Shown here in pieces: positions 7,528-61,070 of a stretch of DNA of 64,000 nt (position 1 is its first letter; each line of letters opens with the position of its first letter). The notes below the pieces were generated by a model. The model was given only the letters and a program-made list of their open reading frames with translations. It searched no databases and was not told where the DNA came from. A program made the position numbers and the translations under genes. The DNA is taken from assembly GCA_037355855.1 (NCBI GenBank), contig CM074761.1:1302001-1366000 (forward strand). Direction: 5' to 3'. This DNA comes from Pseudo-nitzschia pungens (lineage: Eukaryota > Bacillariophyta > Bacillariophyceae > Bacillariales > Bacillariaceae).

Positions 7528-10500
7528 TCATTCTTTCTTCTTGAAGGCATTGTATTCCTCCTCGGTCATGTCAGAATACTCGTTGAAAATCATTGGCAAG
7601 TTTGACGACCTTCCCCCATTGTATCGTTCCAAAATCAAAAAATTAGATGCAAAGACCTGTAGTCGATCTTCGCTAAACTCTTTATCGTACCAATCACACC
7701 ATTGTTGGTAAGCTGAAATGATTCGGTGATCAGTGACCGGATCAAAAATACTTTCGTCGGTATCTGTACTTGTCATTGCTTTGTATTCGTCCTCTGTAAG
7801 ATCCGAAAACTCATTCAACACTAATTGAGCACCATTTTCCTGATGGAACTTTTCTACAGTCTGAAAATGAGCAGCAAAGATCTCAAATCGCAAATCACTG
7901 GATTCTTTGCCGTAGAAAGTGCACCATTCGATGTATGCTTCCTTTATTCGGTTTCGTTCCGAATTAAAGTCTGATATTGCTTGAGCGTCTGGGAAGGTTT
8001 CTTGAGGAGACTGATACAAAGTATCTGTAGTACTTTCCGATAACGGTGACTCACCAGGTGAACTGAACGGCAAGAAAGAATTCTTCACAAAAGACGAAAT
8101 AGGCCCACCCAGTGATTTGAGATAATTTCGATCGGCGTTATTTTTGGATGGCGTAGCTGCCGATTCAGAATCTGCAACTTCCGTGCTTGAGTCTTTTGTT
8201 TCGATGGATGTAGATGGCTGGAGAACGTCCATTGGCTCCAACAAGGTCGGAGCTGCATATAAATCGGTGCTAGAAGTATCGAATATCTCTGACTTCCATG
8301 ATGCAAATGGAGAGTAACTCGATTTCAGCGGTGCTCTGATTTTAGACAGAGCCTCTAAATAGTTCAACGCATCACTCTCTTCGCTCGACCTCTGTTGATC
8401 ACCTGAAACTCCTGTGGTCCCACTCTCAGTCTCTGATGCCGTATCTCTTTCAGGTATGGATTCGCGGTAGTCAGGTTGTGGTGCCATATACAAAGTGCCA
8501 CTGTCAGAAGAAGGTGACTTTGGTTTTGTTCCGATAGTGCCAAACGGCGAGTATGACTTCTTGGCGTAGGAACGTGCTTCACCTAGGGGATCTACGAGAT
8601 TATCGAGATAGTTTGCACTCGAAACGGTATCTAGTTTTTCTTCTTGGGAGGATATTTCATTTGATGGTGATGGTGATGGTGATGATGATTGTGATAATGA
8701 CGATGATGAAGAATCAACTGCTGGCGGCTTATACAAAACACCATTATCGGATGCTGATGCCTTCGGTTTTTGGCTAACCTTTCCGAACGGGGAATAGGAT
8801 TTTTTGCTTTCTGAAGCATCAGCGACTTGGACATTGAGATCTTCCAGATAGTTTGCTTCAGCTGTTACATCCGATTCATCGTCAAGAGGTAATTCTAATG
8901 GTGGGTTGTACAAGGTGTCAGACATTGATTCTGACGTTTCCCTGTTGATCCATTCTTTTGAGCTGAATGGAGAGTAAGATGTTTTGCTCTTGATAGTTGA
9001 AGTACTCTTTGCGGGAACTTCATTATCTCCACGCGAGTCCAGTAATGATGAGTCGAAACTTTCTTCGTCCGACAACCGCTCGTTATCTGATTGTGCAGGG
9101 GGACGATACAAGAATTCGTTGCCAGTTGTCAATCCTTTTAAATTCTTTCCTCCGTCTCCGAACGGGGAAAAGGACTTCTTTCCACTGGAAAATACAGAAC
9201 TCAATGGTGCAATCAGATGATCAAGGTATTTCGATACTGGAGTAGCGTCTCGTTCTTCCTCGGAAGAAAGATCGAATGATTCTCCTTTTGGTGGCCCGTA
9301 CAAAGAGTCTTTCGACGTTGGTGCCTTCGGTTTCTCTCCCGTTGAGCCAAATGGAGCATAGGACTTCTTGCCGCTGCCAGAGGTAGCACCTAGTCTGAGC
9401 ACAAGACGATCCAAATAGTTTGCTACCGGTATCATGTCTCTTTCTTCGTCTGATGGAAGCTCGTGTCCCGATGATTCTGCTGTCGGTGTTCTATACGAGG
9501 AGTCACTGCTGGAGGTTGGTGACTTTTGTTTTTCTCCTGTTTTCAAGCCAAATGGTAAATAGGATGTCTTGCTGCCGTTGAATGTCGCTTTCGGTGAGAC
9601 TTCGAGACGGTCGAGATTTGTTGCTGGAACAGCATCTATTTCTCCGTCGGTTTTTGGTTCGTTGGGTGGAGTAGCGGGGGGCTTGTACAAAAAGTCGTTG
9701 CTAGAACTTGATCCCTTCGGTTTTTCACCACGGTCCAAGCCAAATGGCGAGAAGGACTTCTTACTACGCGAAGACGCACTTAAGGGGACTACAAGTCGTT
9801 GAAGATAGTTTGCCACAGGTATGCTATCTCTTTCCTCTTCAAATGGAAGATTGACATCCAATGGCTGCTCCCTATAGAGAGAGTCCACTTTAGGTGCCTT
9901 CGGTATACCACGCCCAAACGGAGAAAATGATCTTTTTACAGATCCGCCACCTTTGCTACTGACATCTTTCAACGGAATGATCAAACGGTCTAAATAGTTG
10001 GACACCTGAATTCTGTCTCTCTCGTTTTCTTTTGGCAGATCGAAGTCAGATTCGGATGGGCTGTACAGCGAGGTCTCGTGTATTTTTTCTGAGAAAGTAA
10101 GAAATGTGAAGATTTAAAATATGCTTAGTTAGACCGTCACATTCGACACGTGGTTGTAGTGTATATGTTATGTAGGTATGCTTTTATTAGGAGTTACCTG
10201 GAGAATACAATCCCTTATCTCTAACTGCTTTGGGCTTTGTACCAAATGGAGAATATGACTTCTTCACACCCGACGGAGCATTCGAATCGTCCAAACCGGT
10301 CAAATATGAGCCCTGAGAAGAGGTGACGGGTTCCAAAGACTCCGTCGTTGAACCTTCATTCGTACTCGGCTCTTCGCTAACTGCAAGAGGGGCATCATAC
10401 AACGAATCACTTGATGTTTGCCATGTCTTTGTGGCTCCAAAAGGTGAATATGACGATTTTAGGGCAGCAGCTCCGCCTCCGTTGGTTTTCGCCATTGAAT

Positions 10501-13500
10501 CAAAATACGACCCTCCGTTCGCAGGAGTCTCGACTCCTTCAACGACATCATTCGTTTCAACTTCCGGTGATGATTCATCATTTTCACTCGGCAATGCAAC
10601 TGAAACTGGAGGATCATACAGGGAATCTTTCGCCGGTGCCTTAGGTGTTCCAAAAGGTGAATAAGATGACTTTAGACCAGCTGAAGGTGCAGACATGGAT
10701 TCCAGATAGGATGGACCTGCTGCTGACTCAGCTCCATCAGAAATGAGTGGCCCTTCAACTCTCTCTTCAGCAGACGACAAGTCTCCCGATGGAGGTTTGT
10801 AAAGAAAATCGTTGCTTGCTGTCTTCTTTGGATTTGCAAACGGAGAAAACGAAGTCTTCGGAGATGCAGTACCATCGGAAACCTTCGACATTGAGTCTAA
10901 GTAAGATCCAGTGTTGGACTTCACCTCAGCAGTGGAGGCACTTGCTGTTTGCGGCTCAATTGCTTTAGCAGTGGCCGAGGCGGGCTCTGTACTTTTAGAA
11001 GGTCCAGAAAAGGGGGAGTAAGACCCCTTCGCCGGTCGCGGTGAAACCTCCTTGGTGACGGACGCACTAGTCTTCACTGAATCGCTGCTTGTTGGCTTTG
11101 GATCGACAGCCATAGTAACAGAAGTCGCAATCTCTTGCTTGGGTTGAACCTTCGGTGTAGGAGGAACAACAGGTGTCAATGGCTTCACTGCTGGTGAAGG
11201 TGGTGCAACATTTTCATTGGTCGGTGAAGATTGTGTTTCCGCAGCCTGTTCTATCTCATTCTGAATCTTTTGATAGAAGTAACCATATGTGATTCCACCT
11301 ATCAAAGCAGCGGAACCTGCAATTTTGTAACCCAAATCACCGTTGAGTCGAGTAGCAAATTCAGAAAGTTTTGAAGAGCCTGAGATAAGCTGATTTGCAA
11401 CCGGTGCTGGTGCTCCTGTGGAATACGCTGCCGTTACGGGTTCGGCAGAGAGCGAAACAACTTGTTTTGCCAATACAGTCTGTTGCCATCTCTTGTAAGT
11501 CGAAAGGTTATCTTGGGACGAAGACGAGGCTAAGTTCGATGATACTGCTGCGGTTGCCTTGATCTCAGATTCGGCTTGTTTGATGCGAGCTTCGTACGCA
11601 ACTCGCTGACGCTGTTGCCACTCTGCGTAGGTCGACATCGATGGTTTTGCGTAAGTCGCTTTACGAGCTGCCATCGCACCGATGCTTGCTTTTCGAGCTT
11701 CCACAGTCGCAGTCTCTAACGCTTCACGTGCCTCTGCTTCACGAGTGGCTGCTTCTGCTGCCAACTTTTGTGCTAATATCGTCTCCTCTGCAAAAGCGCG
11801 TTCTCTCTCTGCTGCTTCCTGGGCTGCGGCGAGTTTTGCAGCAAAATCTTGGGCCTGATTGAGCTGCGCCACTTCCGCTGCCTTGAGTTTGACACTGAAT
11901 TCTTCCTTGGCAGCCCGCTCTTTCAACAGAGCTGATTCGACCTCTTTTTTCAATCGTGCCGACTCTTCTGCGGCGGCCTTTTCTTTGGCCATTGCATCCA
12001 TCCGAGTTTTTTCTACTTCGGCACGAGTTTTCTCTACTTCAGCGCGAAGACGAGCCGCCTCTTGCTCGGATTCCAAACGAAGACGAGCAGTCTCTTTCTC
12101 GGATTCTGAGCGAAGCCGAGCCGTCTCTTGCTCGGCTAGAGTCCGCAGTCGAGCCGTCTCTTGCTCCGCTTGGGTCCGCAGGCGGGCCGCCTCTTGCTGG
12201 GCTTCGGTACGGAGACGGGCCGCTTCTTTCTCTGCTTCGGTACGAAGACGAGCGGTTTCTTGTTCCGCTTTTTGTACGCGTTCGTCGGCCTCCTTTCGAA
12301 TCAGTGCCTCGGCTTCGGCTCGTTCTTTGAGAGCTTGCTCGCGCTCCCGAGCACGTTGTGCCATGGCTTCCTCTTCCGCCTTCACACGCGCTTCCTCTTC
12401 TTCCTTGATTTTCTGGATTCTTGCGGCTTCTTCTCTCTCCGCAGCCTCTCTCTTAGCTTGCACGATTTGCTGGTCAAGGTATGGCATGGGGACTTTGTAA
12501 GGGCCCATTCCCACACTAGGAGGGGTCTGAGGCTTCTTTTCGAACGGATTGGAAGGCAGTTTTAAGCCGGTGCCATCGAGTGCATCTCCGATCGCGTTAC
12601 CCGCGGCATCACCAAGATTTTTCACTCCGTTGGGGACGTTTATTTTTACGGAAGGTGCGCTGGGTAGTTTGACGTCGGGCAACTTCATTCCGACATCCGG
12701 AATTCCGACGTCTGGAAGCTTCGGAGAAGGCAAGGACAGTCCCTCGAACTTTGGGAGCGAAATCCCGTCCGAAGGAATTGCGGGGGCCCTGAGGGCTTTG
12801 ATGTCGGGCAATCCCAGAGACTTGGTGGATTCCAACACCTCGGAAGGATCCGGTAAATTCTTCAATTTGTCGAAATCCACTCCCTTGTCACTCACCACCC
12901 CGGTGCCGATAGCGGCTCCGACGGCAATGGCGGATGCTCCACCCACCAAGGGCTGCAGAACAATCACGAATATTTGATCGGTTGGCAATCGAATCGTCGT
13001 CCGGGTACCGCAAAGCCGACGCCGGTGCCACAAAAACAGATCACGGCAAGGACACAAAACGATTCATTCATGCATCCATCGAATCCAGGAACACAAACCA
13101 GCCACACACGGAAACCGGGGATTTCATAGGATATCGATTGTTGCAAAAGAATCGGGGTCAGTCACAGCCCGTATTGCTTGCAAGCGTACCCCGGTCGTTC
13201 CCGAGATAATCGATTGGCATCAAACACAATGATAGGAACACAGCGCAACACGAATCATCCTTAGCATCATTCATTCGAATCGGTCCACGTACCGTCAAAA
13301 ATCCGATTTTCTTCTCCTTCTCCGCCGACTCTTCCGGGGCAGATCCCGAGGATTGCGAAATGGGAATGGTCGCCCGTCCCTTGTTGGCCACGTACTCGTT
13401 CAGGACACGATCCTGGGAAGCGGTCGGAGCGGATCTCAGGGGCTGGGTCGCTCGCACCGGTGTTTCGCCGCCGTTCGCTCCGGGCAAGTTGACCCCGGGA

Positions 13501-13961
13501 ACCGTTGCCCTGGGGGTTCCGAGCCGGTCGGGACTCATGTTGGTGTCGTCATCGGGCGCGGCGGGGGTGCCCAATCGGTATCGGCTTCCCGAAACCGTTC
13601 GGACCGTCGACGACTCCTTCAATCCGGTCTGTTTCTTCAGGGGACTCGTCAGCACGTTGTCTCCGCTGTCGGCCATGACACCCTGGATGCGACCGTCGGG
13701 CAAGAGTTTCCACGAGTTGATCACACCGAGGTCGCTCCCGCTCGCCGTGGCGGCATGCAGCGGGATGGATCGATCATTGGCGCGATGAACCCGTTGCGGT
13801 TGCTGGTGCTGGTGGGAGGGGACGAGATTCGCAACCGATGGTGGGGAGACAAAGGCATCCGACCGACTCGTCAACAATGCGAGAGCAACTACGGCGAAGA
13901 AAACCGCCACCGTCGACACTCTCGAAGCGGTCTTTGTTGCCATCAACATCCTTGGCATCAA
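7528..13961 (-). CDS. Gene A: plastid-type presequence, coiled coil, SPFG repeats, two I29 domains
   Basis: Three exons join in frame: 13961-13293, 12952-10198 and 10088-7528, giving 1994 aa. Residues 1-36 form a signal peptide ending SDA|FVSPP, like the A|F junction of diatom plastid presequences. Residues 80-132 are a weak copy of the WGHP module found in D and E. A Gly/Ala-rich hydrophobic segment (224-243), LPD-type Pro repeats, a PYLDQQI motif (about 379), a coiled coil (about 390-645) and a second hydrophobic segment (about 766-785) follow. From about 861 come some 15 units of YLxxL...KKSYSPFG...LYxPP, 60 to 80 aa each. The C-terminus holds two I29-like domains (about 1857-1914 and 1932-1994) with W..WY.K...S..R...F and N.[FY]SD.TE.EY signatures but no peptidase. 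Function unknown; a plastid scaffold or multivalent linker is my inference. Any of the first three Met codons could be the start. Confidence 0.75.
10089..10197 (-). other. Intron 2 of gene A (109 bp)
   Basis: The donor reads CCAG|GTAACT and the acceptor CTTTCTCAG|AAA on the minus strand, phase 1. Joining restores the SPFG repeat unit across the junction: SLYSPSESDFDLP continues into the next YLDRL unit. Confidence 0.85.
12953..13292 (-). other. Intron 1 of gene A (340 bp)
   Basis: The donor is TTGACG|GTACGT and the acceptor TTGTTCTGCAG|CCC, phase 0. It joins the presequence exon, which ends EKEKKIGFLT, to the hydrophobic PLVGGASAIAVG segment. It is the longest intron in the window. Reading through on either side gives unlikely Cys/Arg-rich protein, which supports splicing. 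Confidence 0.75.
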
Positions 13962-22208: not shown

Positions 22209-25200
22209 ATGAGAACTACGATGAAGTCGAAAACACGCAGGCAAATGGTCAATGCACCGAACCACGGAACGGAGATGAAATCAGAATCGCTGCAGAGATC
22301 GTTGCCAACAAGAACAAGGATGTTCGGTGTTACACTATGGGCACTGATTGTCATTGTTACAGCGTCCCATTCGTTTCACAACATCTCGTGTGAGGCTTAT
22401 GTGCCACCATCTTCGCCGTCATCCATTTTCCTTTCAAATAACAAACCGGCAGTGACATCGAGAAGAAACACTGCCTTGTACGAAACATCGAATAGATTTG
22501 GTCGCAACAACGAAGCGGAACGATTGAAGAAAAAACGGGACGAACTGGACGCCAAGGCCCTGCGTCAAGAGTTGTTGTCCGAAGTGCGAGAAGCCGAAGC
22601 AGCGAGAAAGAAAATCGAACGCGACATCCGAGAAGCCGAGGCGAGACGACGCGCCTTGGACGAACAAGCTTCGGAGGGGCGAAATTACATCGACAATCTT
22701 CAAACCGGCAAGCTCGGAGCGGTGAATGCAGCAAAGAGTTTCTTGGATTCTGGGTTCAAAGGCAAACGCGGCAAACCATCCAAACTAGACCTCGAACGAG
22801 AGCGTCTCGAGCTCGAGTTAGAACAATTGAAATCGAAGCAAAAAGCGCAAGAAACGACTCAACTGTTGACGACATACGGAGGACTAGCAACCGCTTTGGG
22901 TGTTGCTGCTAATGTATTGAACGGTAACGGGGAACTCGGAGAACTAGGCACCGCTTCGGGTTTGAGGCAACTTTTCCCTTCTACCAGCAAATATCTAACG
23001 GATTTGTCGGCCAAAAACGACAACGAACGAATCGCAGCAGCTGCAGCGAGGAACGTCGGTGGCAACGTCGAAATGCCCTACCTGGACGCCAAAATCGCGG
23101 AACTCGAGAAAAAGGTCAAGGAAGAACGCAATACTGTGAAAGAAGAAGCGCGAGAATTAGATCGACTGTCACGAGAAAAGGAGGAAGCTCGGAAAAAGGG
23201 GGTACTAGAAGCCGAACAGAAGGCTGAGAAAGAAGCGCAGGAAAAGGCAGAAAGGGAGGCAAAGGAAAAGGCTGAACAAGAAGCGCAGGAAAAGGCAGAA
23301 AGGGAGGCAAAGGAAAAAGCTGAACAAGAAGCCAAGGCTAAGGCAGAAAGAGAAGCCAAAGAGAAAGCTGAAAAGGAGGCAAAGGAAAAAGCTGAACAGG
23401 AAGCTAAGGCAAAGGCAGAAAGAGAAGCCAAAGAGAAAGCTGAAAAGGAGGCAAAGGAAAAAGCTGAACAGGAAGCCAAGGCAAAGGCAGAAAGAGAAGC
23501 CAAAGAGAAAGCTGAAAAGGAGGCGAAGGAAAAGGCGGAAAGAGAAGCCAAGGCAAAGGCAGAAAGAGAAGCCAAAGAGAAAGCTGAAAAGGAGGCGAAG
23601 GAAAAGGCGGAAAGAGAAGCCAAGGCAAAGGCAGAAAGAGAAGCCAAAGAGAAAGCTGAAAAGGAGGCGAAGGAAAAGGCAGAAAGAGAAGCCAAAGAGA
23701 AAGCTGAGCGAGAGGCAAAGGAAAAGGCGGAAAGAGAAGCCAAGGCAAAGGCTGAGAGAGAAGCCAAAGAGAAAGCTGAGCGAGAGGCAAAGGAAAAGGC
23801 GGAAAGAGAAGCCAAAGAGAAAGCTGAGAGAGAGGCGAAAGAAAAGGCGGAAAGAGAAGCCAAGGAGAAAGCTGAGCGAGAGGCAAAAGAAAAGGCTGAG
23901 AGAGAAGCCAAGGAGAAGGCTGAGAGAGAGGCAAAAGAAAAGGCGGAAAGAGAAGCCAAAGAAAAAGCTGAGAGAGAGGCAAAAGAAAAGGCGGAAAGAG
24001 AAGCCAAAGAAAAAGCTGAGAGAGAGGCAAAAGAAAAGGCGGAAAGAGAAGCCAAGGAGAAAGCAGAACAAGAGGCTAAGGAAAGTGCAGAGAGGGAAGC
24101 CAGAGAGAAAGCAGAACAAGAGGCCAAGGAAAAGGCAGAAAGAGAAGCCAAAGAGCAGGCTCTGAGAGAGGCTGCAGAGAAAGCAGAAAGAGAAGCCGAA
24201 GAGCTTTCAGAGAAAGAAGCCCAGGAGATAGCCAAACAGGAGGTAGAAGCAAACGTCGCATCTTCTGCTTCGATCACACCGCCACCGGCAAAGACGGCGT
24301 CAGCACCTGTGACAACAACGGTAGCTAAAACTTTGTCTAACATAAACGACAAATTGAATGCAATTGTTAGTGAACAAGGCGGGAAGGAGGGGACTTCTGA
24401 CGGATTTTTGAAGCAAGTTCAGGAGGATGGTCTCGTAAATGCCGTACTGAAGCTGGACTTGAAAACGCAAGCGACGGCGGCTGCCGGACTTCTAGCAACA
24501 GGAGCGGCTGCAGCATACTCTCAATTTAGCAAAAAGGACGACGATGATGATAATGATTTCAGCTTTGGTGGGAAATCAAACAGTAACAGTAGAAACAGTG
24601 ATATGCCAAATAATAAATTTGGGGGCGGATCAACAAGCAATCGGCAATTCGGGAGCCAAGGATTTCAGAATAAGCAAGGAGGAACTTCCTCTTTTGGAAA
24701 TCAAAAACAAGGTGGAACCCCATCATTTGGAAATCGAGGAGGAACTCCCTCGTTCGGAAATCAAAGCAAACAAGGTGGAACCCCATCATTTGGAAATCGA
24801 GGAGGAACTCCCTCGTTCGGAAATCAAAGCAAACAAGGTGGAACTCCATCATTTGGAAATCGAGGAGGAACTCCCTCGTTCGGAAGTCAAAGCAAACAAG
24901 GTGGAACTCCATCATTTGGAAATCGAGGAGGAACTCCGTCGTTCGGAAATCAAAGCAAACAAGGTGGAACTCCATCATTTGGAGATCGAGGAGGAACTCC
25001 GTCGTTCGGAAATCAAAGCAACCAAGGGGGCACCCCGTCCTTTGGAAACCAAGGAGGGACTCCCTCGTTCGGAAATCAAAGCAAACAAGGTGGAACTCCA
25101 TCATTTGGAAATCGAGGAGGAACTCCGTCGTTCGGAAATCAAAGCAAACAAGGTGGAACTCCATCATTTGGAGATCGAGGAGGAACTCCGTCGTTCGGAA

Positions 25201-45800: not shown

Positions 45801-48800
45801 CAATCAGAAGTCGCGAAGGGGAATGGTGAAAAGGCATTTTGGTCAGAAACATTTGACGCTTCAACAGAAGTGGAAAATAATCCTACGTTTGACATTTCAT
45901 CTTCGAAATCAGATCCACCATTTGGTGATGAAAACAAATCAGAATCAGTCTTCTCTTCAACGTCTTGAATCATTTGTGATCTCAAAGCAATAAATGTTGT
46001 AGCAGCGACAACCGCGACAAACAAAGCAGCCGTGGCCAACTCGATCTTCTCATCGTCGTCGTTGTAGTTCTTCACAAGTTCCAATATGCTCGGATCCTCC
46101 AAAATGTTTATCCTGGACACAACTTCGGAAAGATCGTTCCATATTTCGTCCACCGAAAACGCATCAGATAGAGTCTCCATCGCATCCCTCGAGAGATGGG
46201 ATAATTTCGTCACGCCATCTTCCCCAAATATGGCAAGTGCAGAAGACGTCAGTTCAGACAGAGTCGTGAAAGAACTGCTCAGGTCAACGTTTAATGGACT
46301 CAGGTCGGTTCCAATCAGCTGTCTACCTGCCGAAGCAAGGTCCATAACTACCTTCTCCAATTCGTTTGAGACTTCATTGCGAGTTAGGCTGATCTCTTTC
46401 GCAAAACTTTTGATATCGTTTAATGCTTCGATTTCGATTTTCATCTCCCCATCTTCACCATCCTCTGTCATCGGTTCTATTCCTCCGTCTGTTACGGATT
46501 TTCCCCCATCAATGCCTGTATCATTAATCGGCTCTTCCTCTTGGCGTTCGTCAGGTTGTTCTTGAACTGATCCCTCTATTTCGACTTGTGATTTCGACAC
46601 CAGTTCCATTTCTTTGTTCACTTCATTTCTATCATCTAGCTTCGTTGACGTTTCTTCGTTTTTTTCTCCGTCTCTTTGTTGAACAAGCTCATCTGTATCT
46701 GATAGTCTTTCCATTCTTGTATCATGTGCAAGAATGTCCACCTTATCATATGGCAAGGGTCCCTTTTCCTCCTTGTAAGTATCCATGGTTAATATTTTGT
46801 CTTTGTGCACTAACTCCCCCGTATATCCTGACGGATCTTTGATTGTATCCGGTTTGACCTCTGCCTCCTCTTCACGATCTTTCACTCTGACTTGGTCAAC
46901 TATTTGATACGACAAACTTTCCTTTCTTCCTTCCTCAACATAATCTGTATCTGAAGGTACTGCTGTCGCTGCATCCAATTTTTTTGTCTCTTCCTCCTCT
47001 TCACTATCCATTTCTCGTTGCATCAACTCATCTGTATTTGTGGGTACTTCCGTAGCTGTATCTGTTTTTGCCTCCAACTGCTCTTCACTATCTATATCTT
47101 GTTGCACCGACTCATCTGTATCTGCCAGTGCTTCTATTGCTGTATCTATTTTTACCTCCACCTGCTCTTCAGTATCTATGTCTTGTTGCACAAACTCATC
47201 TCTATCTGTCAGTCGGTCTATCGTTGTATCTGTTTTTAACTGCGCCTCCCCGTCACTGTTTATGTCTTGCTGCATCAACTCATCTCTATAAGTCAATCCC
47301 TCTGTCGCTGTGTCTGGTTTTACCAGCGCCTCCTCTTCAGTATCCATGTATTGTTGCACAGAATCATCTTTATCAGTGCGTGCTTCTGCCGCTGAACTCA
47401 TTTTTTCCTCGGACTTCTCTTCAGTATCCATGTCTTGTTGCACTGATTCATCTTTATCTGTGGGAGCTTCTGTCGCTGCATCAAATTTTACCTCTTCCTC
47501 CTCTTCACTATCTATGTGTTGTTGCACCGATTCATCTCTATCTGCGGGTGCTTCTGTTGCTGCATCCAATTTTATCTCTTCCTCCTTTTCACTATCAATG
47601 TGTTGTTGCACTGAGTCTTCTGCATCTGCGGGTGAAACTATATCCAGTTTGACCTCCACATCCTCCCCAATATCTATGTCCTGTTGCAACGACTCATCTC
47701 TATCTGTTGGTGCTTCAGTCTCTATATCCAATTTTACCTCTACCTCCTCATCACTAGCCATGAGTTCTTGCACCGATTCATCTGTATCTGCAATTGTGTC
47801 CGTCACTGTATCCACTACTATCTCCACCTCTACCTCCTCTTCACTATCTATTTCTTGTTGCACCGACACATCTGTATCTGCAGTTGCTTCTATCCCTGTG
47901 TCTGTTTTTACCTGCGCCTCCTCTTCTACGTCTTGTTGCACCGACTCATCTGTATCTGTGGTTGCTTCCGTAGCAGTAGCTGTTTTTGCCTCCACCTCCT
48001 CTTCACTTTCTTTGTCTTGTTGCACCGACTCATCTATAGCTGCGAGTGCTTCTGTCGTTGCAACGTTTTCTACTTTTACCTTCTCTTCAATATCTATGTC
48101 TTCTTGCACCCACTCATCTAGATCTGCGGGTGCTGCTGTCGCTGCATCCAAATTTACCTGCGCCTCCTCTTCTACGTCTTGTTGCACCGACTCATCTGTA
48201 TCTGCTGGTACTTCCGTTGTTACATCGGTTTCTATATTTGCGTTCTCTTCAATGTCTATGGCTTGTTGCATCGACTCATCCATATCTGCGGGTGCTGCTG
48301 TCGCTGCATCCAAATTTACCTGCGCCTCTGCTTCTACGTCTTGTTGTACCAACCCATCCATATCTGTGGGTGCTTCTGTCGTTGCATCGATTTCTACCTT
48401 TGCCTCATCTTCAATATCTATGCCTTGTTGCACCGACTTCTGTATATCTGCAGGTGCTGCTGTCGCTGCATCCAAATTTACCTGCGCCCCCTCTTCTTTG
48501 TCTTGTTGCACCAACCCATCTATATCTGCGGTTGCTTCTGTCGTTGCATCGGTTTCTACCTTTGCCTTATCTTCACTGTCTATGTCTTGTTGCACCGACT
48601 CATCCATATCTGCGGGTGCTGCTGTCGCTGCATCCAAACTTATCTCCGCCTCCTCTTCTATGTCTTGCTGCACTATGTCTTGTTGCACCGACTCATTTGT
48701 ATCTGCGGATGCTGCTGTCGCTGCATCGAAATTTACCTGCGCCCCCTCTTCTATGTCTTGTTGCACCAACCCATCTATATCTGCGGTTGCTTCTGTCGTT

Positions 48801-51800
48801 GCATCGGTTTCTACCTTTGCCTTATCTTCACTATCTATGTCTTGTTGCACCGACTCATCCATATCTGCGGGTGCTGCTGTCGCTGCATCCAAATTTACCT
48901 CCGCCTCCTCTTCTATATCTTGCTGCACTATGTCTTGTTGCACCGACTCATTTGTATCTGCAGATGCTGCTGTCGCTGCATCGAAATTTACCTGCGCCCC
49001 CTCTTCTATGTCTTGTTGCACCAACCCATCTATATCTGCGGTTGCTTCTGTCGTTGCATCGGTTTCTACCTTTGCCTTATCTTCACTATCTATGTCTTGT
49101 TGCACCGACTCATCCATATCTGCGGGTGCTGCTGTCGCTGCATCCAATTTTACCTCCGCCTCCTCTTCTATATCTTGCTGCACTATGTCTTGTTGCACCG
49201 ACTCATTTGTATCTGCAGATGCTGCTGTCGCTGCATCGAAATTTACCTGCGCCCCCTCTTCTATGTCTTGTTGCACCAACCCATCTATATCTGCGGTTGC
49301 TTCTGTCGTTGCATCGGTTTCTACCTTTGCCTTATCTTCACTATCTATGTCTTGTTGCACCGACTCATCCATATCTGCGGGTGCTGCTGTCGCTGCATCC
49401 AATTTTACCTGCGCCTCCTCTTTTATGTCTTGTTGCACCGACTCATCTGTATCTGCGGGTGCTTCTGTCACTGTATGGATTTTTACATAGTCTTCGCTAT
49501 CTTGTGCCGTTACTTTGTCACTCAATTCATCCAACAAAGTTTCCGTTCTCGAATCTTCACTATATTGTTCAGCGTCTTGGTCAGTTACTTCACCTGACAT
49601 AGTTTCCATTCTCTCTTCATAAGCATCACCCGTTGATTCTTTGTCTCCATTGATTTCGGTTTGTTGTTGCTCTGACTCCGCCTCTACAATATTCCGTGTA
49701 GCAGCATGGTCTACGTCACCTGCCGAATGTTCTAAGTCTATTTTTCCATCTTTTGCGATGCTTGTGATTGCTTTGTCGCCCTGATTGTCATGAGATTGCC
49801 GTGGTACCGAATTGTCTGTATGCTCCACGAGTTCTCTAATTGGATCAATTTCTTCACGATCTCGTGCAGTAGTTTCGATAAACTCGTCAGACAATAAATT
49901 CCTTCCCTCTGTTTTGATATTCTCAGCTGAATCTTCATCCTGGTAATTTTCAGTTTGTAGCGTCACCATCTTCTTCATTTCTGCAAATACATTCTTCATA
50001 CCTTTCGTCACCGGTGCTTCGGAAATTCTGGGTTCGATTTCTTCGCTCATGTCACCACTTGCTTCGCTCACATCACCGCTATGATATGGTAAAGATCCTT
50101 TTCCCTTTTCCATGGCATTTTCAGCTGATTCGAAATCTGTAATCCCTTTTGTTACAATGGCTCTTTCTTGCTGAATTTCTTCGCCACCATTTATTCTCTC
50201 TTGCAAAGATTTCTCTCCCTCCGTCTTGTCGTCATCTGAAAATCCATTCCCTAAGCTTGTATCTTGCATAAATTCTTCCTTTTGAAGCTCTTCTTTGGGT
50301 GGTTGCAGTGACTCTTCGTAATCTCTTTGCATTTCTGACACTATGCCGGGTTCATTCTCTCTTCTATCGAAAACTTCTTCTTCCTTCTCCAACTCCGAAC
50401 TATCGATTCCCACAACATCTGAATCACTTTTTTTACTTACACCACTGGAGTCAGGACCTGTTTTTTGGATTGATCCTTTTGCGTCATCGATCTTTCGCTC
50501 CTGAATTTCAGCATTGTGAAAAGATCCCCTTTCATTGATATCATCCTCTTGACTTTCTTCTAATTCCTTTTCATTAGTCGTATACACAGAACCAACAGAG
50601 GAAAAAAAATCTTCTTCCGACTTTGATTGCTCCTCCGAATTCTCTTTTGGGGATCGCATTTCTCTAAAATTTTCTTCGACTCTCGTAGTTTCGATCATTG
50701 GCTGATACTCTTCATTTTCAGAGTTTTCGTCGCTGTCTTTTACCCCATCCGCTGACTTCGTTGCTGTGGCCATAATCTTCCTGCGTTCGGTATTATTCTC
50801 GTCGTCTTCCTTTATGTTTCGATTGCTACCAGATTCAATCCTCTCTTTCTGCTGTTGAAGCTCATCTACACCGAAACTATCGGCCCTCTCTTGCTGTTGC
50901 TTTTCTTGTTCTCGCAACGCCTCTTCCAACGCTCTAATTCGTTCCTCCAGGTACGGAAGGATCGCTTTTGCTGGTTGAGCGAATTGTATTTCATCACTAT
51001 CTGGTGCTATCGCCATTGAATCCTTTATTATCTCTTCGTCTGGATTTCTTAAAGTTGATTCTTTCGTTATTGTCTCAATCATTGTGTTTGGAATCGAGGG
51101 GGCATCCGCTATTGTCTTTGCATCCATATTGATTGCGTCTCCAACCAAATAAGCTGCTCCTGATAACGCCGCTGTCACAATGATCCCCGCATTGCGATTA
51201 ATTTCAGCTTCAGCTTGTTTTTGCTCCAGTTCTTTAAGTTCTCTCTCTTCTTTCTCAGCCAATAGTCGGACAATCTCTATTTGTTCTTCTAGGTATGCAA
51301 CTTGTTCCTTGTACGGAAATTTTTTTGATAGCTGACCACTTGTATTGGACTCACTGCCGTTTTCCTCCTTCGAAATTAGAGGAGCATTACTGATTCGTAT
51401 GTTTGGTGGCATCAAAGCGTATTTTGTCCCTGTTACTGTTGTCACCAATTTTGAATAAATTGACGATCGCTGCTTGATTATGAATGTTGGCCTTCCGTTT
51501 TGATTGTCCTCTGTCGACAACATTTCAGTTGCGGTTTTTAAGGCTTCTTCTTGCAGAGGTGCAGTGGTTATAATATCCCCATCAGGTATGACCGGATGTC
51601 CCGTGACGGTCCCAACCAGGGAATATTTGGTTGTTCCATCTTCCCTGAGCTGTTCGTCAACAGACCAATCTTGCAACGTCGGTGCTGTTATCGCCTGTTC
51701 ATTAGGAGTTCTATTTGGCGTACCACGATTTATGAGATTCTTGACGATTCTGGGCGTTTTCGGAAGTTTGAAGGCGAATGCAGTAACGTAATGTGATTCG

Positions 51801-52096
51801 GGGGAGGAAATGCTCGATAGCAATAAGATCGTGTATACAATTGCGACCACAAAGTAGAAAAATGTTGCTCTTGCTCTTCTCTTCCCAGAGCGCATATGGG
51901 CCGATTTCATTCTTCTTTCAAACTTCAACAAAAGTTCATCGGTGTCACGATCAGAATACGTATGATCATGCCGATATGCTTGTCCGCAATGCCCATTGTA
52001 TCGACGACTTGACGAGAGTTTGCGCCGTCGGTAGATTTGCCTCTCAGTTACAATAAGATCCTTCGTTGAATCGATTATCCTGTTGCTTCTATCCAT
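39840..52096 (-). CDS. Gene D: very large acidic-repeat, FG-repeat, GOLD-domain protein
   Basis: Two exons, 52096-40334 and 40241-39840, give 4054 aa; a start at 51910 would place MKSAHMRSGKRRAR just before the hydrophobic signal and may be the true one. The signal ends VTA|FAFKLP. A WGHP module lies at about 142-231, followed by VAYLEEQI and LPYLEERI motifs flanking an Ala-rich hydrophobic segment. A long acidic region contains DAATAAPADMDESVQQDID-type repeats (about 870-1730). A membrane-like segment (near 2020-2045) precedes a long FG region (about 2089-3205) with SSPFGTGASTFPK, SFGTGPSAFKKG and NPPFGTPK stickers, then an Arg/Glu coiled coil (about 3275-3830), a GOLD-like domain split by an intron, and a terminal coiled coil. 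The whole 11.8-kb exon is open despite its repeats, which argues for selection. Function unknown. Confidence 0.75.
40242..40333 (-). other. GOLD-domain intron of gene D (92 bp)
   Basis: The donor is GTCAAG|GTAAGA and the acceptor CATAAATAAG|AAA, phase 0. A second possible acceptor 39 bases further on (GGGTCAG|GAC) is also in frame. The chosen one gives KLVPFTKH, which aligns with the exon starts of genes B and E. Confidence 0.75.
44165..45480 (-). repeat. 189-bp tandem repeat in gene D (63-aa FG unit)
   Basis: The marker TCCTGACTTC recurs at 44291, 44480, 44669, 44858, 45047 and 45236, exactly 189 bp apart, with a diverged copy near 45425. Units alternate between a KGVKKSSDPKAG and a KTAQKSSDPKAG form, so the recent expansion was by 378-bp pairs. 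Each unit carries about three [SP]FG or AF stickers. Confidence 0.9.
48280..49490 (-). repeat. 255-bp tandem repeat in gene D (85-aa acidic unit)
   Basis: The marker CATCCATATC recurs at 48601, 48856, 49111 and 49366, exactly 255 bp apart. Each unit encodes DESVQQDID...DAATAA/DATTEA acidic repeats. More diverged, shorter units continue down to about 46960, so this is a recent amplification at one end of an older array. Confidence 0.9.
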
Positions 52097-53973: not shown

Positions 53974-56900
53974 CTAGAAATCGTTGAAAGATTGATCGCT
54001 TTGGAGCCGTCTTGTTGGTTGTTGCTGTCCGGCTGTTTCGACTAGCTTTTTCAATCGCTCTTCATCGGCCATTATTGTTTCAAGCTTGGAACTCTTAGCA
54101 ATGATCTCATTTTGTAATTTCATTACCTCTTGTTCTAATTCGACCACTCTTGCGTTTGATGTTTCGACAATTTCACGTTGAGACTGCAATTCTGTTTCGA
54201 GAAATTTTAGACACGATCTTGCCCGTCGTCTCCGTCCAAGTTTTATTGTTTCTGCGGAAGGAGGAACGACCCGAATTTTATAACCTACACGAACCTTTTC
54301 CAAAAGAGTTGAATAATTGTTAGCAAATTTAAATTGCATCGTGCAAGGGGCGCATCCTGCTGGTACCACTAAGCTTTCGGTTTCAGTCTTCTTCCGGAAT
54401 GCGGTCATTTCCTGGAACCAAGGGAGGACAAAAAAGAGAACAACACAAACGGTAGGAACGCCGAAATGAGACTTAGTCTAACGACTGCAGGCATCGTGAT
54501 CTGTTGGTTGAAATGCAAGAAAATTATAGTTACCTTGATTTTTGCCACCTTCCCTTCGTCCATAAAAGCAGTGATACCAAACCCAAAATCGTACGACTTC
54601 TTCTCAACAGAAAACTCCACAACAGTGCCAGGTGTAGAAACGCGCACCGGAACCGATAGGGTGTTCCCCGCTTGCACAGCGGCATCCCTTTCTGAGAAAA
54701 AACCTTCCTTTGCACTGTAATTCTCCAAGGACGGTCCCCTTATTTCGTTCATCAAAAGTGTCGTACTCGCAAATACTTGCTCAGTCGGCGTGTATAATTT
54801 ATCGCCCTTTGTGATTTTGTCAGCCAGTTTGCTTGCCTCGTCATTCGGTGGATTTTCCTCTGGTAAGGATACTGTTCCCCTACTATCTTCTAGTTGATTA
54901 TTAGCTTCCCTTGTGATTTCTTGTAGAAATTGTAAGTCTCTTGAGCGAGTCTGTTCTTTGAGCTTAAAGTCGTCCTGGCTCATCTTTTGCATCCTTTCTA
55001 CTTCTAGTAATTGAGACGCAACCTCCGATTGCTCTCTTTCGATCTTGTCGTATTTCTGTCGAATATCACTGAAAGATCTGCCATCGCGTTGGCCCTGGGT
55101 TTTCGTTATTTTCAGAGATTCAGCAGACTGATCTGTATTCTCAAGAATAGAAACGTAAGAACTATTCTCTTCTGAAACCTCAGGGTGGTCATTTAAACCA
55201 AATTCCTTTTCTAACCTTTCAAGCTCTGAAAGACGATTTTCTTCCTTTGGTTGTTTGGTCATCAACAGAAAGGCTCTCTTTGCTTCTCTTTCGGTGGTTT
55301 CTTCCTCTAATTTTCTCTGTGCCTCGGCCAGAGCTTCGGCCTCGACCTCTTGCTTTGCTCTGATAGCTGCTTCCTCCTCTGCTTTCCTTCTGGCCTCAGC
55401 CTTTGTTTCGGCCTCTTCCTTTGCTCTGATAGCTGCTTCCTCTTGTGCTTTGCTTCTGGCCTCGGCTGCAGCCTTTGTTTCGGCCTCCTCCTTGGCCCTC
55501 TTCACAGCGAGAGCTTCCTCCTCTGCTTTCTTCTTTGCCTCCGCCTCGGCTGCAGCCTTTGCTTCTGCCTCTTCCTTTGCTTTCATAGCAGCCTCTTCCT
55601 TCGCCTTCTTCATAGCGAGAGCTTCCTCCTCTGCTTTCTCCTTCGCCTCCGCCTCGGCTGCAGCTTTTGTTTCTGCCTCTTCCTTTGCTTTCATAGCTGC
55701 TTCCTGCTCTACTTTTCGTCTGGCCTCAGCTTCAGCCTCTTCCTTTGCTTTCATAGCTGCTTCCTCCTCTGCTTTTCTTCTGGCCTCAGCTTCAGCCTCT
55801 TCCTTCGCCTTCTTCACAGCGAGAGCTTCCTCCTCTGCTTTCTTCTTTGCCTCCGCCTCGGCTGCAGCCTTAGCTTCTGCCTCTTCCATTGCTTTCATAG
55901 CTGCTTCCTCCTCTGCTCTTCTTCTGGCCTCAGCTTCTGCTGCAGCCTTGGCTTCAGCCTCTTCCTTTGCTTTCATTGCGGCCTTAGCGGCCTCCTCGGC
56001 TTTTTCCCTAGCCTCAGCTTCTGCTTTAGCCTTCGCTTTAGCTGCTTCCTCCTCTGCTCTTCTTCTGGCCTCAGCTTCTGCTGCAGCCTTGGTTTCTGCC
56101 TCTTCCTTTGCTTTCATTGCGGCCTTAGCTTCCTCCTCAGCTTTTCTTCTGGCCTCAGCTTCTGCTGCAGCCTTGGCTTCTGCCTCTTCCTTTGCTTTCA
56201 TTGCTGCTTTCTGCTCTGCTTTTCGTCTGGCCTCAGCTTCTGCCGCAGCCTTGGCTTCTGCCTCTTCCTTTGCTTTCATTGCGGCCTTAGCTTCCTGCTC
56301 TGCTTCTCTTCTGGCCTCAGCTTCTGCTTCAGCCTTCGCCTCAGCGTCTTCCTTGGCCTTCATCACAGCAAGAGCTTCCTCCTCTGCTTTCTTCTTTGCC
56401 TCGGCTTCTGCCGCAGCCTTAGCCTCTGCCTCTTCCTTTGCTTTCATAGCTGCTTCCTGCTCTGCTCTTCTTCTGGCCTCAGCTTCTGCTGCAACCTTGG
56501 CTTCTGCCTCTTCCTTTGCTTTCATTGCGGCCTTAGCTTCCTCCTCGGCTTTTCTTCTAGCCTCAGCTTCTGTTTCAGCCTTCGCCTCAGCGTCCTCCTT
56601 GGCCTTCTTCACAGCAAGAGCTTCCTCCTCTGCTTTCTTTCGGGCCTCGACCTCTGCTGCAGCCTTAGCTTCTGCCTCTTCCTTCGCTTTGACTGCGGCC
56701 TTAGCGTCTTCCTCTGCTTTTCTTCTGGCCTCAGCTTCTACTGCAGCCTTTGTTTCGGCCTCTTCCTTAGCCTTCTTTATAGAAAGCGCTTCCTCCTCTG
56801 CTTTCTTCTTTGCCTCGGCCTCGGCTGCAGCCTTTGCTTCTGTCTCTTCCTTGGCCCTCTTCGCAGCAAGAGCTTCCTCCTCTGCTTTCTTCTTTGCCTC

Positions 56901-59900
56901 GGCTTCTGCCGCAGTCTTAGCTTCTGCCTCTTCCTTTGCTTTTCTAGCTGCTTCCTGCTCTGCTCTTCTTCTGGCCTCAGCTTCCGCTGCAGCCTTGGCT
57001 TCTGCCTCTTCCTTTGCTTTGATTGCGACCTTAGCTTCCTCCTCGGCTTTTCTTCTAGCCTCAGCTTCTGCTTCTGCCTTTGCCTCGGCTTCTTTCTTTG
57101 CCTTAGTTGCAGCAGCAGCTTCTTCTTCACTTTTCTTCTTGGCCTGAGCTTCAGCAAGAACCTTCGCTTTGGCCTCTTCTACTTTTCTTTCCGCCTCTGC
57201 CTTCGCCTCACTCATCTTCTTTTCTACTTCGGCAATTGCTCTGCCTCGGGCAGCTGCTTCTTCTCCTGCAATGGCAGCTTGTTCCTCGGCCTTCTTTCTT
57301 GCCTCTATCTCTGCCCTCACATCAGCTTCCATGCGCCTGAGCTCTTCTTGGGTTTCAAAGCTAGAGATTTCCGTTTCTCGTTCTAATGCATAATTTTTCT
57401 TCTGAACTTCAACGTCAATAGAGAGTCTCTCTTCCTTGAGTCTTTCCTCCTCTAGTGTCCTTCTTGCCTTCTCGAGTGACAAATCACGTCTTTCTCTTTC
57501 TGCTAGCAGAGCAGCCTGTTCATCGATCACTCGTTTTTTGTTTTCCTCGGCGATTCTCAGTTCTTCAGCTATTTCTCTCTCTGCTGTCGCTCTTTCTTCA
57601 AGGATCAAGTCATACGCTCTCCTTTGCTCACTCAAACGTATGCCGAGAAGCTTTCGCCTCAACTTTTCAAGCAATGAATCTTCTTTTCTCTTCAGTTTTG
57701 CTCTGATTCGCTCTTCTTCTTCAGCTTGCAGTCTTGCCTCCTCTTCAGCCTTCGCTCTGGCTTCTTCTTCAGCCCGGAGCCTTGCCTCCTCTTCAGCCTT
57801 CAGTCTAGCTTGCTCCTCAGCTTGGAGTTTTGCCTCCTCCTCGGCCTTCAGCCTAGCTTCTTCTTCAGCTTGGAGCCTTGCCTCCTCTTCGGCCTTCGCT
57901 ATGGCTTCCTTCTCGGCCTTCAGCCTAGCTTCTTCTGCTGCTTGGATCCTTGCCTCCTCTTCGGCCTTCGCTATAGCTTCCTCTTCGGCTTTCAGCCTAG
58001 CTTCTTCTTGAGCTTGGATCCTTGCCTCCTCTTCGGCCTTCGCTATAGCTTCCTCTTCGGCTTTCAGCCTAGCTTCTGCTTCAGCTTGGATCCTTGCCTC
58101 CTCTTCGGCCTTCAGTATGGCTTCCTCCTCAGCCTTCAGTCTAGCTTCTTCTTCAGCTTGCAGTCTTGCCACCTCTTCAGCCTTCGCTTTGGCTTCTTCT
58201 TCAGCCCGGAGCCTTGCCTCCTCTTCAGCCTTCAGTCTAGCTTGCTCCTCAGCTTGGAGTTTTGCCTCCTCCTCGGCCTTCAGCCTAGCTTCTTCTTCAG
58301 CTTGGAGCCTTGCCTCCTCTTCGGCCTTCGCTATGGCTTCCTTCTCGGCCTTCAGCCTAGCTTCTTCTGCTGCTTGGATCCTTGCCTCCTCTTCGGCCTT
58401 CGCTATAGCTTCCTCTTCGGCTTTCAGCCTAGCTTCTTCTTGAGCTTGGATCCTTGCCTCCTCTTCGGCCTTCAGTCTGGCTTCCTCCTTGCTCTTGACC
58501 CTAGCATCTTCTGCTGCTTGGAGTTTTGCCTCTTCATTTGACATTAGCTTGGCTTCGTCTTCGGCTACTTTTACCCTAGCACCAAAATATTTTTCTCCGA
58601 TTTTTCCGTTGATTTTTTGGTCGTCACCTGACGAGTCATCCTTTTTGGCAAAGTAGACGGGGATTGATTTCGGCATTTCTTCCAATGATGCTGTCACCGT
58701 CGATCTGGGTGGTGATTTATCCTTCGTTTTGTCATCAACTTCGGCAAGTACATTCTCTACTTCAGCTAGGAGATCATCGATTTCGTCGACAAACTTTAGT
58801 TTCTGCGTTATATTCGTCGCCAAGAACCTCTTTTTTGGCGGACGCGTTGAAGGTGGTCTCGGTACATTTTTTTTACTGATTCCATCGGCGGCTGAAACAT
58901 CAGCAATTAACTCGTTTGGATCCTCAGAGGCAATGTCAGTGGTTGTGGTGCTTGTGGAGTTGCTTTCCATTAGTGTTTCGTTATCTCCCGATAGTCTGCG
59001 TCGCAATTCGAAAGAGGTGACGAGACCTGCGGCGCCTGTAATTCCAGCGGTGGCAATTCCCGTCACTCCCGTTTGAATTGCCTTCCAAACAGACGACTTT
59101 TCGTCTTCCCTCTGTCGCTGTTCCAATTCTTTCGCTAGTGCCTTGGCCTCTTTCGCTTCAGCTTCTATTCTAGCTTTGTCCAGCGCCATTTGTCGTTCAT
59201 CGTCCTGCTGTTTCTGACGTTGTTTTCGCAGCGACTCTAATTCCTCCTGTCGCTCCCGTAATTCTGCCTTGGCTTTTTCGTTGGCCGCCGCCTTCCGTTC
59301 CGCTTCCTTTTTAGTATTCTCTACCGCTTCCAAACGAAGCCTTGCTTTCTCCAGTCTAGCCTCTTCCTGCTGTTGCTGGCGCTGTGTTTGCAGCGCTACT
59401 AATTCTTCTTGTCGTTTCAGCAATTCGGCTTTTGCCTTTTCGTTGGCAGCAACTTTTTCTTCTGCTTCTCGTTTCGCATTTTCAGCCGCTTCCAACCGAA
59501 GTCTCGCTCGTTCTCTTTTGCTGTTGCTGTATTTCCATCTGCCGCGCGCGCTGTTGTTCTCGTTCGAGGTTGGCTTTTTCGATGGCTTTTCTGGCTATTT
59601 CTTCTTCTTCGAGACGGCGCAAGCGTTCTGCTTCTCGTTGTTGGGCTTGCTTTTCGAGCCTGAGTTTTTCGGCTGCTGCCTCATCTCGCTTCTTTTGCTC
59701 TTGTCGCTCGATTCGGAGTTTCTCTGCTGTCGCCGCCGCTTCCTCTCGTTCCTTTTGCTTTCGCTCCTCCAATCGGAGTTTCTCTGCTGCTGCCGCCGCT
59801 TCCTCTCGTTCCTTTTGCTCTTGCTTCTCCATTCGGAGTTTCTCGGCTGCTGCAGCCGCTTCCTCTCGTTCCTTTTGCTCCTGCTTCTCTATTCGGAGTT

Positions 59901-61002
59901 TCTCGGCTGTTGCTTCCTCTCGTTCCTTTTGCTCTTGTTCCTCCATTCGACGTTGATCGGCGGGTGAAACTACTGCACTACCTTCTTCGGTCGATTGCTG
60001 TTGGTCGAGAATATCTTGTTGCTGTTGTTTTGTTGCTTGAAGTGGGGAAGGCACCGCGAGAGTAAACGATGACGAGGACGGTGGAGTAACCCCCTTTTTC
60101 GCGTTGTTTCCCACCATAATACTGTTGCTGCTGTCCCCGTTACTGTTGCTGTTAAAGGGGCTAATGACAGTGCCTGGATCGTTTACCACATTCAGACCCA
60201 CAACCCCCGCCACTCCAGCAGCTGCAACCGCACCCAGCACGTTATTTTTCGAGTCGAGTTTCGCCAACTGATCATCGATCTCTTCTTGAGTATCTTGGGG
60301 CGTAGGAGGTTTTGGCTTCCCAAAAGACAAGTTCGCAATCCCCCTCTTCGGCGTTTTCAATTTGTATTGACTCCCGGTTTCGGTCGTAATGATTGAACCT
60401 TTCTTGAAATTAGTTTCTATCGGAGGCGATGCTGAAATAAAGTCCCCATCGGGAAGGACGGGATGGCCGGTAACGATTCCGGTTAGCCGTCCGGTCGATG
60501 GATCTATCTTCCAATTGTCTATTATCGGTATTCCTCCGTTCTTTCTAATATTTTCTTTGAATGCGATTGGGGTCGCCGGCATTGGTGGAGGCGACAGTGG
60601 TTCGTCTTTCTTCCGTTTGCCGAACAACGAAAACCTTCCTTTCTTCTTCTTAGGTGTCTCTAGTTTGTACTTTGTTCCGGACAAGGTCGTAACTACCGTT
60701 CCTTTTCCGTCCAGAGCAAAATCTGGATTGGATAGCGGACTCGTTGTGATTTCGTCTCCATCCTCCAAAACGGGATGTCCCTTAACGATTCCTGTCAGGG
60801 TTCCATCTTTCGTGGACAACGTCCATTGATCAATAGTAGGAACTTTCTTGTTGTTTCTATTGGACAAGATGGACATGGCCTCGACCTTGCTCGATTCCTT
60901 AATTGCGATGGAAATAAAGGCCGATACGATCAAGATGGTTGTGAACATCGCCGCTCCCGAACGCCTTCCTCGCCGTCTTCGCCATTGCCATGAACGTTCC
61001 AT
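53974..61002 (-). CDS. Gene E: double WGHP-module, giant coiled-coil, GOLD-domain protein; one frame break
   Basis: Two exons, 61002-54534 and 54411-53974, give 2301 aa after removing one base. A basic N-terminus (MERSWQWRRRRGRRSG) precedes a hydrophobic segment ending VEA|MSILS, a signal or anchor. Two WGHP modules follow (about 59-117 and 163-218), each ending G[TS][KQ]YKL[EK]TPK. Then come an Ala/Gly/Val hydrophobic segment (about 255-272), a Gln/Glu/Arg coiled coil, a second hydrophobic segment (about 643-666), a linker and a very long coiled coil (about 810-1917) of KAEEEARLQAEEEA units. A GOLD-like domain (from about 2114), split by an intron, and a terminal coiled coil finish it. Unlike B and D it has no FG region. 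The frame breaks at a 4-A run (59516-59519); three A's would give an uninterrupted QQQQRERARLRLEAAENAK. A structural role is inferred. Confidence 0.75.
54412..54533 (-). other. GOLD-domain intron of gene E (122 bp)
   Basis: The donor is ATCAAG|GTAACT and the acceptor CTTGGTTCCAG|GAA, phase 0. The exon begins EMTAFRKK, aligning with PMSPFDGK in B and KLVPFTKH in D. Confidence 0.85.
57730..58500 (-). repeat. 432-bp tandem duplication within the gene E coiled coil
   Basis: The sequence starting near 57841 recurs starting near 58273, almost base for base for over 200 bp. The offset of 432 bp equals 144 codons, or a whole number of the smaller 24-bp units. It lies within a region already made of 24-bp KAEEEARL-type units. 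Confidence 0.85.
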
Positions 61003-61037
61003 TTTCAGAAAAGTGCTCACCGATCTAGATTGGACGA

Positions 61038-61070
61038 GGCTAGACTAGACTAGACTAGACTAGACTAGAT
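61038..61070. repeat. (TAGAC)n microsatellite
   Basis: Six or so copies of the pentamer TAGAC immediately upstream of the gene E start codon, probably in its 5' UTR or promoter. Confidence 0.85.

Follow-up and report, generated by a model that had tools for sequence, protein, structure and literature searches.

A cluster of giant modular proteins in Pseudo-nitzschia pungens: candidate membrane tethers of the diatom plastid

Described pyrenoid scaffolds and the gene cluster

Up to 20% of global CO2 fixation has been attributed to diatoms, and in Phaeodactylum tricornutum the repeats of PYCO1 combine a tyrosine motif involved in self-association with an aromatic-SP sticker through which the Rubisco small subunit is bound; in the available portion of that report, its authors found no PYCO1 homologue in other sequenced algae (PMC10288592). 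As set out in the accessible parts of two further papers, Chlamydomonas tubule-membrane proteins with Rubisco-binding motifs have been proposed to connect to the matrix (PMC10473226), and SAGA1, which has Rubisco-binding motifs, acts with MITH1 to make membranes traverse the matrix (PMC11649565). Within the literature covered, part of it as partial texts, PYCO1 is the only diatom Rubisco linker named. The present analysis concerns a cluster of giant genes in a 64,000-nucleotide stretch of the Pseudo-nitzschia pungens genome (GCA_037355855.1, contig CM074761.1, here C4:1302001-1366000; the whole stretch is called the window). Their products may be plastid-membrane-anchored multivalent tethers likely holding a condensate, most likely the pyrenoid Rubisco matrix, a reading with a probability of roughly 0.4. 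The family would offer a short list of candidates through which other diatoms may construct and anchor their pyrenoids, and its sticker unit, a peptide of about 22 residues, is directly testable. Should the proteins not belong to the pyrenoid, they would still constitute an undescribed candidate system of membrane-anchored scaffolds.

The models of genes A-E were rebuilt from long open frames joined at GT-AG introns, and genome-wide searches covered a 66.9-Mb assembly. An earlier sequence-only reading of this DNA had counted five giant genes of about 12,400 residues, and the rebuilt models agree, with a total of 12,383 amino acids (aa; A 1993, B 2668, C 1405, D 3979, E 506+1832) and a longest single open frame of 3980 codons. 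The right limit of that reading, position 61002, is the ATG of gene E, and the GOLD modules of B, D and E are finished by second exons (to 30327, 39840 and 53974) beyond the open reading frames it had used. The two frames of E (59482-61044 and 54405-59594) overlap with no joining intron identified, which indicates a frame break or an unseen intron. Beyond the right edge of the window are two further members, F and G, giving at least seven genes across about 82 kb; inspection of the first 100 and last 60 residues of frames of at least 200 aa, covering 30 kb on the left side and 40 kb on the right, showed no others. The features are listed below, in window positions unless marked C4.

7528..13958, minus strand: gene A, 1993 aa, exons 13958-13293, 12952-10198 and 10088-7528; presequence (..SDA-FVSPP), degenerate WGHP, hydrophobic segment, PYLDQQI, charged rod, weak second hydrophobic segment, tail (12 S[FY]SPF motifs with YL[DE]xL and LYxPP), I29 pair
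13563..13724, minus: degenerate WGHP module of A (A-E1 match, E-value 4e-4)
8232..11035, minus: repeat region of A, YL[DE]xL - S[FY]SPF(G) - LYxPP, with intron 10197-10089 inside
7552..7908 (7783-7908 and 7552-7710), minus: I29 (cathepsin-propeptide-like) pair of A
22221..30327, plus: gene B, 2668 aa, exons 22221-29783 and 29884-30327; presequence (..CEA-YVPPS), hydrophobic segment, PYLDAKI, rod (8-residue period), 155 FG, GOLD end
24789..28841, plus: FG-rich chain of B (TPSFGN / GGFGSGKQ / GGFGASKG repeats)
29496..30219, plus: GOLD module of B with short tail helix, split by the common phase-0 intron
30923..35301, minus: gene C, 1405 aa, exons 35301-34396 and 34234-30923; presequence (..TEA-FLAPS), FGGLAAAR hydrophobic segment (also in G), PYLEKKI, rod, second hydrophobic segment, 18 SPFG
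31136..32473, minus: SPFG-rich chain of C
39840..51910, minus: gene D, 3979 aa, exons 51910-40334 and 40202-39840; presequence (..VTA-FAFKL), WGHP, PYLEERI, acidic repeats, 46 FG, GOLD
51548..51682, minus: WGHP of D (the range is that of a partial match)
42671..45445, minus: FG-rich chain of D (SSPFGTGPSAFKKG repeats)
39867..40636, minus: GOLD module of D, split by the common intron
53974..61002, minus: gene E, 506+1832 aa, one frame break between 59594 and 59482; presequence (..VEA-MSIL), two WGHP, two hydrophobic segments, 1132-aa rod, GOLD
60343..60843 (60640-60843 and 60343-60531), minus: two WGHP modules of E
54022..54845, minus: GOLD module of E, split by the common intron
C4:1372669-1381311 (window scale 70669-79311): gene F; presequence, WGHP, PYLEEQI, charged rod, 47 FG including 15 SPFG
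C4:1387952-1391696: gene G; presequence, PYLEKEI, rod, KKSYSPFGGGKPKAVGNDSLYAPP units, frame break within the repeats (near C4:1391014)

Modules shared among the seven proteins

Judged by sequence comparison, the cluster members are paralogues with shuffled modules, a conclusion drawn from the GOLD, WGHP and tail matches, the PYL[DE]xxI motif and a common GOLD intron. Nine pieces were compared under low-complexity filtering: B, D and E align pairwise through their GOLD ends at E-values of 3e-35 to 2e-43, WGHP links join A, D, E and F (7e-9 to 8e-3; D-F 7e-9, E-F 3e-7, A-E 4e-4) and the tails of A and G match at 1e-14; a rod-rod match of A and C (1e-6) and an FG-FG match of B and D (3e-6) also appear and are given no weight. 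The intron within GOLD occupies the same place in all three genes (phase 0, after an aligned Lys). PYL[DE]xxI is present in A, B, C, D, F and G; among 2000 composition shuffles of all seven proteins, it turned up in a single protein four times and never in two. A single comparison found the FGGLAAAR hydrophobic segment to be common to C and to P0008, a relative of G (2e-7), and a genome search with the N-terminal part of C recovered C itself, G (1.4e-5), two stop-bearing frames and one 1114-aa frame. Against the whole genome, the N-terminal part of B found B alone, and the GOLD end of E found only B, D and E (E-value 0.1). The earlier proposal of duplication followed by shuffling or loss of modules is borne out by the way these links overlap across members, and its premise that the shared modules are not chance low-complexity similarity holds, since the links persist under filtering and PYL[DE]xxI beats the shuffles. 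The ordered set of modules that had been described was recovered as regards GOLD in B, D and E, the I29 pair in A, WGHP in A, D and E and PYL[DE]xxI in A-D, but E has neither an FG chain nor PYL.

With respect to the folded modules, the profile of the B, D and E ends matches the GOLD domain of SEC14-like 4 (SEC14L4; E-value 6.2e-4), and a Foldseek match (1e-5) points to the GOLD beta-sandwich fold. Pfam EMP24_GP25L was reached by one of the three single proteins, at 0.096, and a genome search with Pfam EMP24 gave six matches, none within the window; the module is intron-split and divergent, and it was resolved by the profile and fold routes. WGHP occurs in A (degenerate, without HP), D, E (twice) and F. 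Its best match among sequences in the PDB has an E-value of 0.12, and its fold matches to SANTA and DNMT1 RFTS are weak; at an E-value of 1, SANTA (PF09133) was not listed for the 13 WGHP members, the source genome and 14 of 14 control genomes being equally silent. Assignment to Pfam ECR1_N_2, reached by one of the 13 members (6e-4), was not trusted. The I29 pair of A was recognised by Pfam in two stretches above the cut-off (PF08246, 6.7e-12) and is the sole such match among the open reading frames of the family, which otherwise gave a few sub-threshold rows; no peptidase domain, C1 included, was found in the exons of A by Pfam at an E-value of 0.1.

Two of these modules also occur elsewhere in the genome. 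In three genes (L010, L011, L022), WGHP stands N-terminal to a Pfam Pkinase domain (5e-23, 4e-23, 1e-9), a possible kinase arm of the same system. A second plastid-type locus, C3:7250534-7260281 (L018, L072, L020), reuses the modules of gene A: one frame combines an SDAFAPHR presequence with an I29-like stretch, and other frames contain two or three I29 stretches, SYLESL, a charged helix, YLDAV/YLEAL and two WGHP.

The diatom plastid rule, in the portion of the source available, places F, W, Y or L at position +1 after the signal-peptide cut (PMC4329603). Read by eye, the N-termini of A, C, D, F and G (5/7) have F directly behind the likely cut, that of B has Y and that of E has M. A PYCO1-like plastid presequence can thus be read, by motif, in six of the seven proteins, and E fails. 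The relatives of E, P0001 and P0002, have L at this position, and AF followed by V-x-P marks it in 14 of the 15 listed relatives of G, the exception (P0013) starting further in. Import of the A-G proteins into the diatom plastid is predicted; the plastid location suggested earlier has the cleavage motif in its favour in these six proteins and 14 relatives, but not in E.

A hydrophobic segment ahead of the rod was found in all seven proteins, with a 19-residue hydropathy of 1.39-2.15, and a second follows the rod in C (1.75), D (2.35), E (1.37), F (1.35) and G (2.53). In E, the longest rod is located after both segments and not between them, and the middle of D is mostly an acidic repeat rather than a coiled coil. 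A fully helical rod would be 170 nm long in E and 41-63 nm long in A, B, C, F and G. The long coiled coil of the sequence-only reading did not stand, as periodicity analysis gave no strong 3.5-residue heptad signal and the repeat signal was strongest at periods of 8 (B, E), 11 (A, C) and 17 (F, G); a canonical coiled coil was therefore rejected.

The tails are rich in FG, with observed counts well over those expected from composition in B (155/43), C (24/2.9), D (46/10.3) and A (10/3.2), and likewise above chance in F. In A, a three-part unit is repeated, YL[DE]xL - S[FY]SPF - LYxPP, with 12 YL motifs against 0.10 expected, and G repeats an aromatic-S-P-F-G-G-G motif with an LYxPP element. A DNA pattern for K-S-[FY]-S-P-F-G gave 23 matches in the whole genome, compared with five for its reversed control; since the pattern fixes the Lys codons (AAA/AAG) and allows no mismatch, variants are not counted. 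Fourteen of the matches fall in the cluster (A 5, C 1, D 2, G 6), and the other nine comprise eight that read KTYRPFG and one KSFSPFG in a stop-riddled frame. As searched by DNA pattern, KS[FY][ST]PFG in open frames is confined to this cluster. The KTYRPFG sequence is dispersed (C1, four on C2, C4:2764042, C7 and C10) and is perhaps a transposon remnant; two of its matches viewed in context were both in frames with stops.

The conservation of these motifs was followed in relatives of G, using residues 15-350 as the database query at an E-value threshold of 0.001 and scoring the best 7996 word-sharing candidates. At least 15 proteins are related to the N-terminal part of G at this level, of which a named relative from P. 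pungens is 93% identical over the region searched; the 15 listed are not independent, owing to near-copies (P0006/P0007 and, more or less, P0015-P0020). The architecture of G is found as one predicted protein in P. pungens, P0007, from an MMETSP entry, a class of entry which we take to be RNA-derived. PYL[DE]xxI is kept in 15 of the 15, and the tail core motif [SN][FYL][ST]PF occurs in 3-7 copies in 14 of them, against 0.003-0.05 expected from shuffled tails. LYxPP is present in 3-6 copies in the tails, and GGYL[DNG][EG]L forms the end of 14. These tail motifs persist in relatives merely 40-58% identical in the N-terminal part. As database queries, the WGHP region of E found four proteins and its GOLD end one. 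A phase-separating matrix role for the tails, as proposed earlier, is plausible, the conserved S[FY]SPF and LYxPP motifs being its new support.

Possible roles of the cluster

According to the mechanism favoured here, a bipartite presequence would carry the protein to the stroma, where hydrophobic segments rich in Ala and Gly would insert in the thylakoid or inner-envelope membrane; C-G have two such segments, and A and B have a clear one and a weak one. A stiff spacer would be provided by the charged helix that separates the segments of A, B, C, F and G and that would span 41-63 nm in a fully helical state. The disordered tail would bear aromatic stickers (SYSPFG, LYxPP, YL[DE]xL, FG) for weak, many-fold binding to the condensate, and the GOLD, WGHP and I29 ends would recruit further partners. 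The proteins would act like the membrane-anchored Rubisco-binding tethers of Chlamydomonas plus a PYCO1-type linker, being unrelated to either.

Nonetheless, a number of observations weigh against this mechanism. The PYCO1 motifs are absent from A-G (WSP 0, GTGYNP 0), as is the Chlamydomonas motif [DN]W[RK]xx[ILVA] (0), and these absences hold anchored tethers at the probability given above and Rubisco linkers proper, considered below, at a lower one. The published ASAFind rule excludes the +1 Met of E, though its relatives carry Leu. The segment after the rod is below the usual level in A (0.81) and B (0.99); the membrane tether of the sequence-only reading stays putative, with the segment ahead of the rod in all seven proteins and a clear second one in five in its favour. 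GOLD domains are familiar chiefly from the cytosol and the secretory pathway, not from plastids. With regard to the tails, B has FG without SPFG, and C, D and F have many SPFG, few full S[FY]SPF and no LYxPP. E has no FG-rich chain (6 FG in 2338 aa), SPFG chain or PYL motif; lacking both chains, it does not qualify as a sticker tether of this type and may serve as a spacer. A relative of G, P0014, has no SPFG tail, its end matching gene H instead, and although motif columns in the tails of eight relatives are more conserved than the rest (0.61 versus 0.41, P 2e-6), the test aligns repeats, which favours motif columns.

A role as a plastid scaffold apart from the pyrenoid is a genuine, if tentative, possibility. 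Here anchored rods would space thylakoids or envelope, or organise nucleoids or division, with the FG/SPFG tails merely a self-adhesive mesh. The plastid-type presequences (6/7 by the F/Y rule), the hydrophobic segments and the rods of 41-63 nm and, in E, 170 nm would suit this role, as would WGHP beside protein kinase domains in three other genes and WGHP with I29 again on contig C3, from which it follows that these modules serve more than one place. It leaves unexplained, however, why S[FY]SPFG-KP-LYxPP is kept in the relatives of G while the spacers drift.

It is rather doubtful that the cluster constitutes a Pseudo-nitzschia-type pyrenoid construction kit independent of PYCO1/EPYC1, in which G and A would be anchored Rubisco linkers and B, D, E and F would provide spacing or shell contacts. 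The KSYSPFGGGKP...SLYxPP units of G and A would stand in for the KWSPRGGS/GTGYNP pair of PYCO1, and the other four would act via rods, FG meshes, and GOLD and WGHP ends. Were this so, a single gene family at one locus would supply linker, tether and spacer.

A secretory, periplastidial or silica-vesicle matrix appears unlikely. The signal peptide would then lead to compartments derived from the endoplasmic reticulum, GOLD would be p24-like and the disordered chains would form organic matrix, which accords with the presence of GOLD, with Met and Tyr at +1 in E and B and with the silicon transporters of this diatom. The F at +1 in the five other proteins and AF in 14 of 15 listed relatives of G speak against it. 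In p24/TMED proteins, GOLD is followed by a helix and then by one transmembrane segment, and no hydrophobic segment above 1.1 was found after GOLD in B, D or E. Least probable is an expansion of low complexity, in which slippage would have made repeats on ordinary duplicated genes of no common function: the DNA is very repetitive and the frame breaks of E and G lie in or near repeats, but the non-repetitive GOLD, WGHP, PYL and hydrophobic segments are conserved, one frame is open for 3980 codons and the tail motifs outlast divergence to 40-58% identity in the N-terminal part.

Other genes were recorded at the locus and elsewhere. Gene H, between F and G at about C4:1382307-1383300 (window scale about 80307-81300), has a plastid-type N-terminus and a membrane helix, GVAGVISYAAWEFAFWTVSVPVC, and a helix of this kind ends the G-type protein P0014. 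Between A and B, on the minus strand at window positions 16791-19728, lie two DUF7467 frames (Pfam PF24269; 2.9e-34, over the cut-off, in one and 0.005, under it, in the other) that are not family members, and between C and D, minus strand, 36923-38236, a Lipid-droplet-associated hydrolase (PF10230, 6.7e-24). The silicon transporters of the source genome were matched at 4e-232, with one of 14 control genomes matched, below the cut-off; at C3:7803825-7808126, a single 1696-aa open frame carries three tandem silicon-transporter repeats, constituting a multi-domain silicon transporter.

Comparison with described systems

No described system with this architecture was found in Pfam or in the literature searched, two 2024 Cell papers on diatom pyrenoid proteins lying outside that coverage; to this extent, the novelty claimed by the sequence-only reading stands. 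Two I29 domains close A as in I29 inhibitor (cathepsin propeptide) proteins, but A differs from papain-type cathepsins and other I29 proteins in that no peptidase domain was found in it. The dense FG of a disordered chain beside a long helix (B, D, F) recalls FG nucleoporins; here, however, a signal/plastid-type presequence and hydrophobic segments are present, and FG is set inside SPFG or GGFGASKG units. To our knowledge, FG nucleoporins carry no secretory or plastid signal. B, D and E end in a GOLD fold like that of SEC14-like proteins, ACBD3 and p24, but here it comes after a rod and (B, D) an FG chain, is followed by a tail helix and is predicted to reside in the plastid; the hydrophobic segment that follows GOLD in p24/TMED is absent from all three.

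As described in the available parts of the sources, RBMP1/RBMP2, SAGA1 and MITH1 of Chlamydomonas are pyrenoid-membrane proteins that have a short Rubisco-binding motif or, for MITH1, bind a carrier of the motif. The RBMP1/RBMP2/SAGA1 motif is absent from A-G, whose resemblance to these tethers lies in the predicted membrane anchor. As regards PYCO1, a DNA pattern for WSPRGG gave 24 scattered matches in the whole genome (seven for the reversed control), none clustered, and a homologue in the source genome was not seen by exact DNA pattern, a weak test. PYCO1 ends at residue 592, with no membrane anchor described in the accessible portion of its report, whereas the cluster proteins run to about 1,000-4,000 aa, combine rods and folded ends with hydrophobic segments, and contain no WSP. 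Both, as far as that portion goes, are plastid-targeted (by prediction here) and have disordered tandem repeats with two aromatic stickers (KWSPRGGS and GTGYNP in PYCO1; S[FY]SPFG and LYxPP here), and an aromatic-S-P-x-G-G is common to PYCO1 and to the KSYSPFGGG of G.

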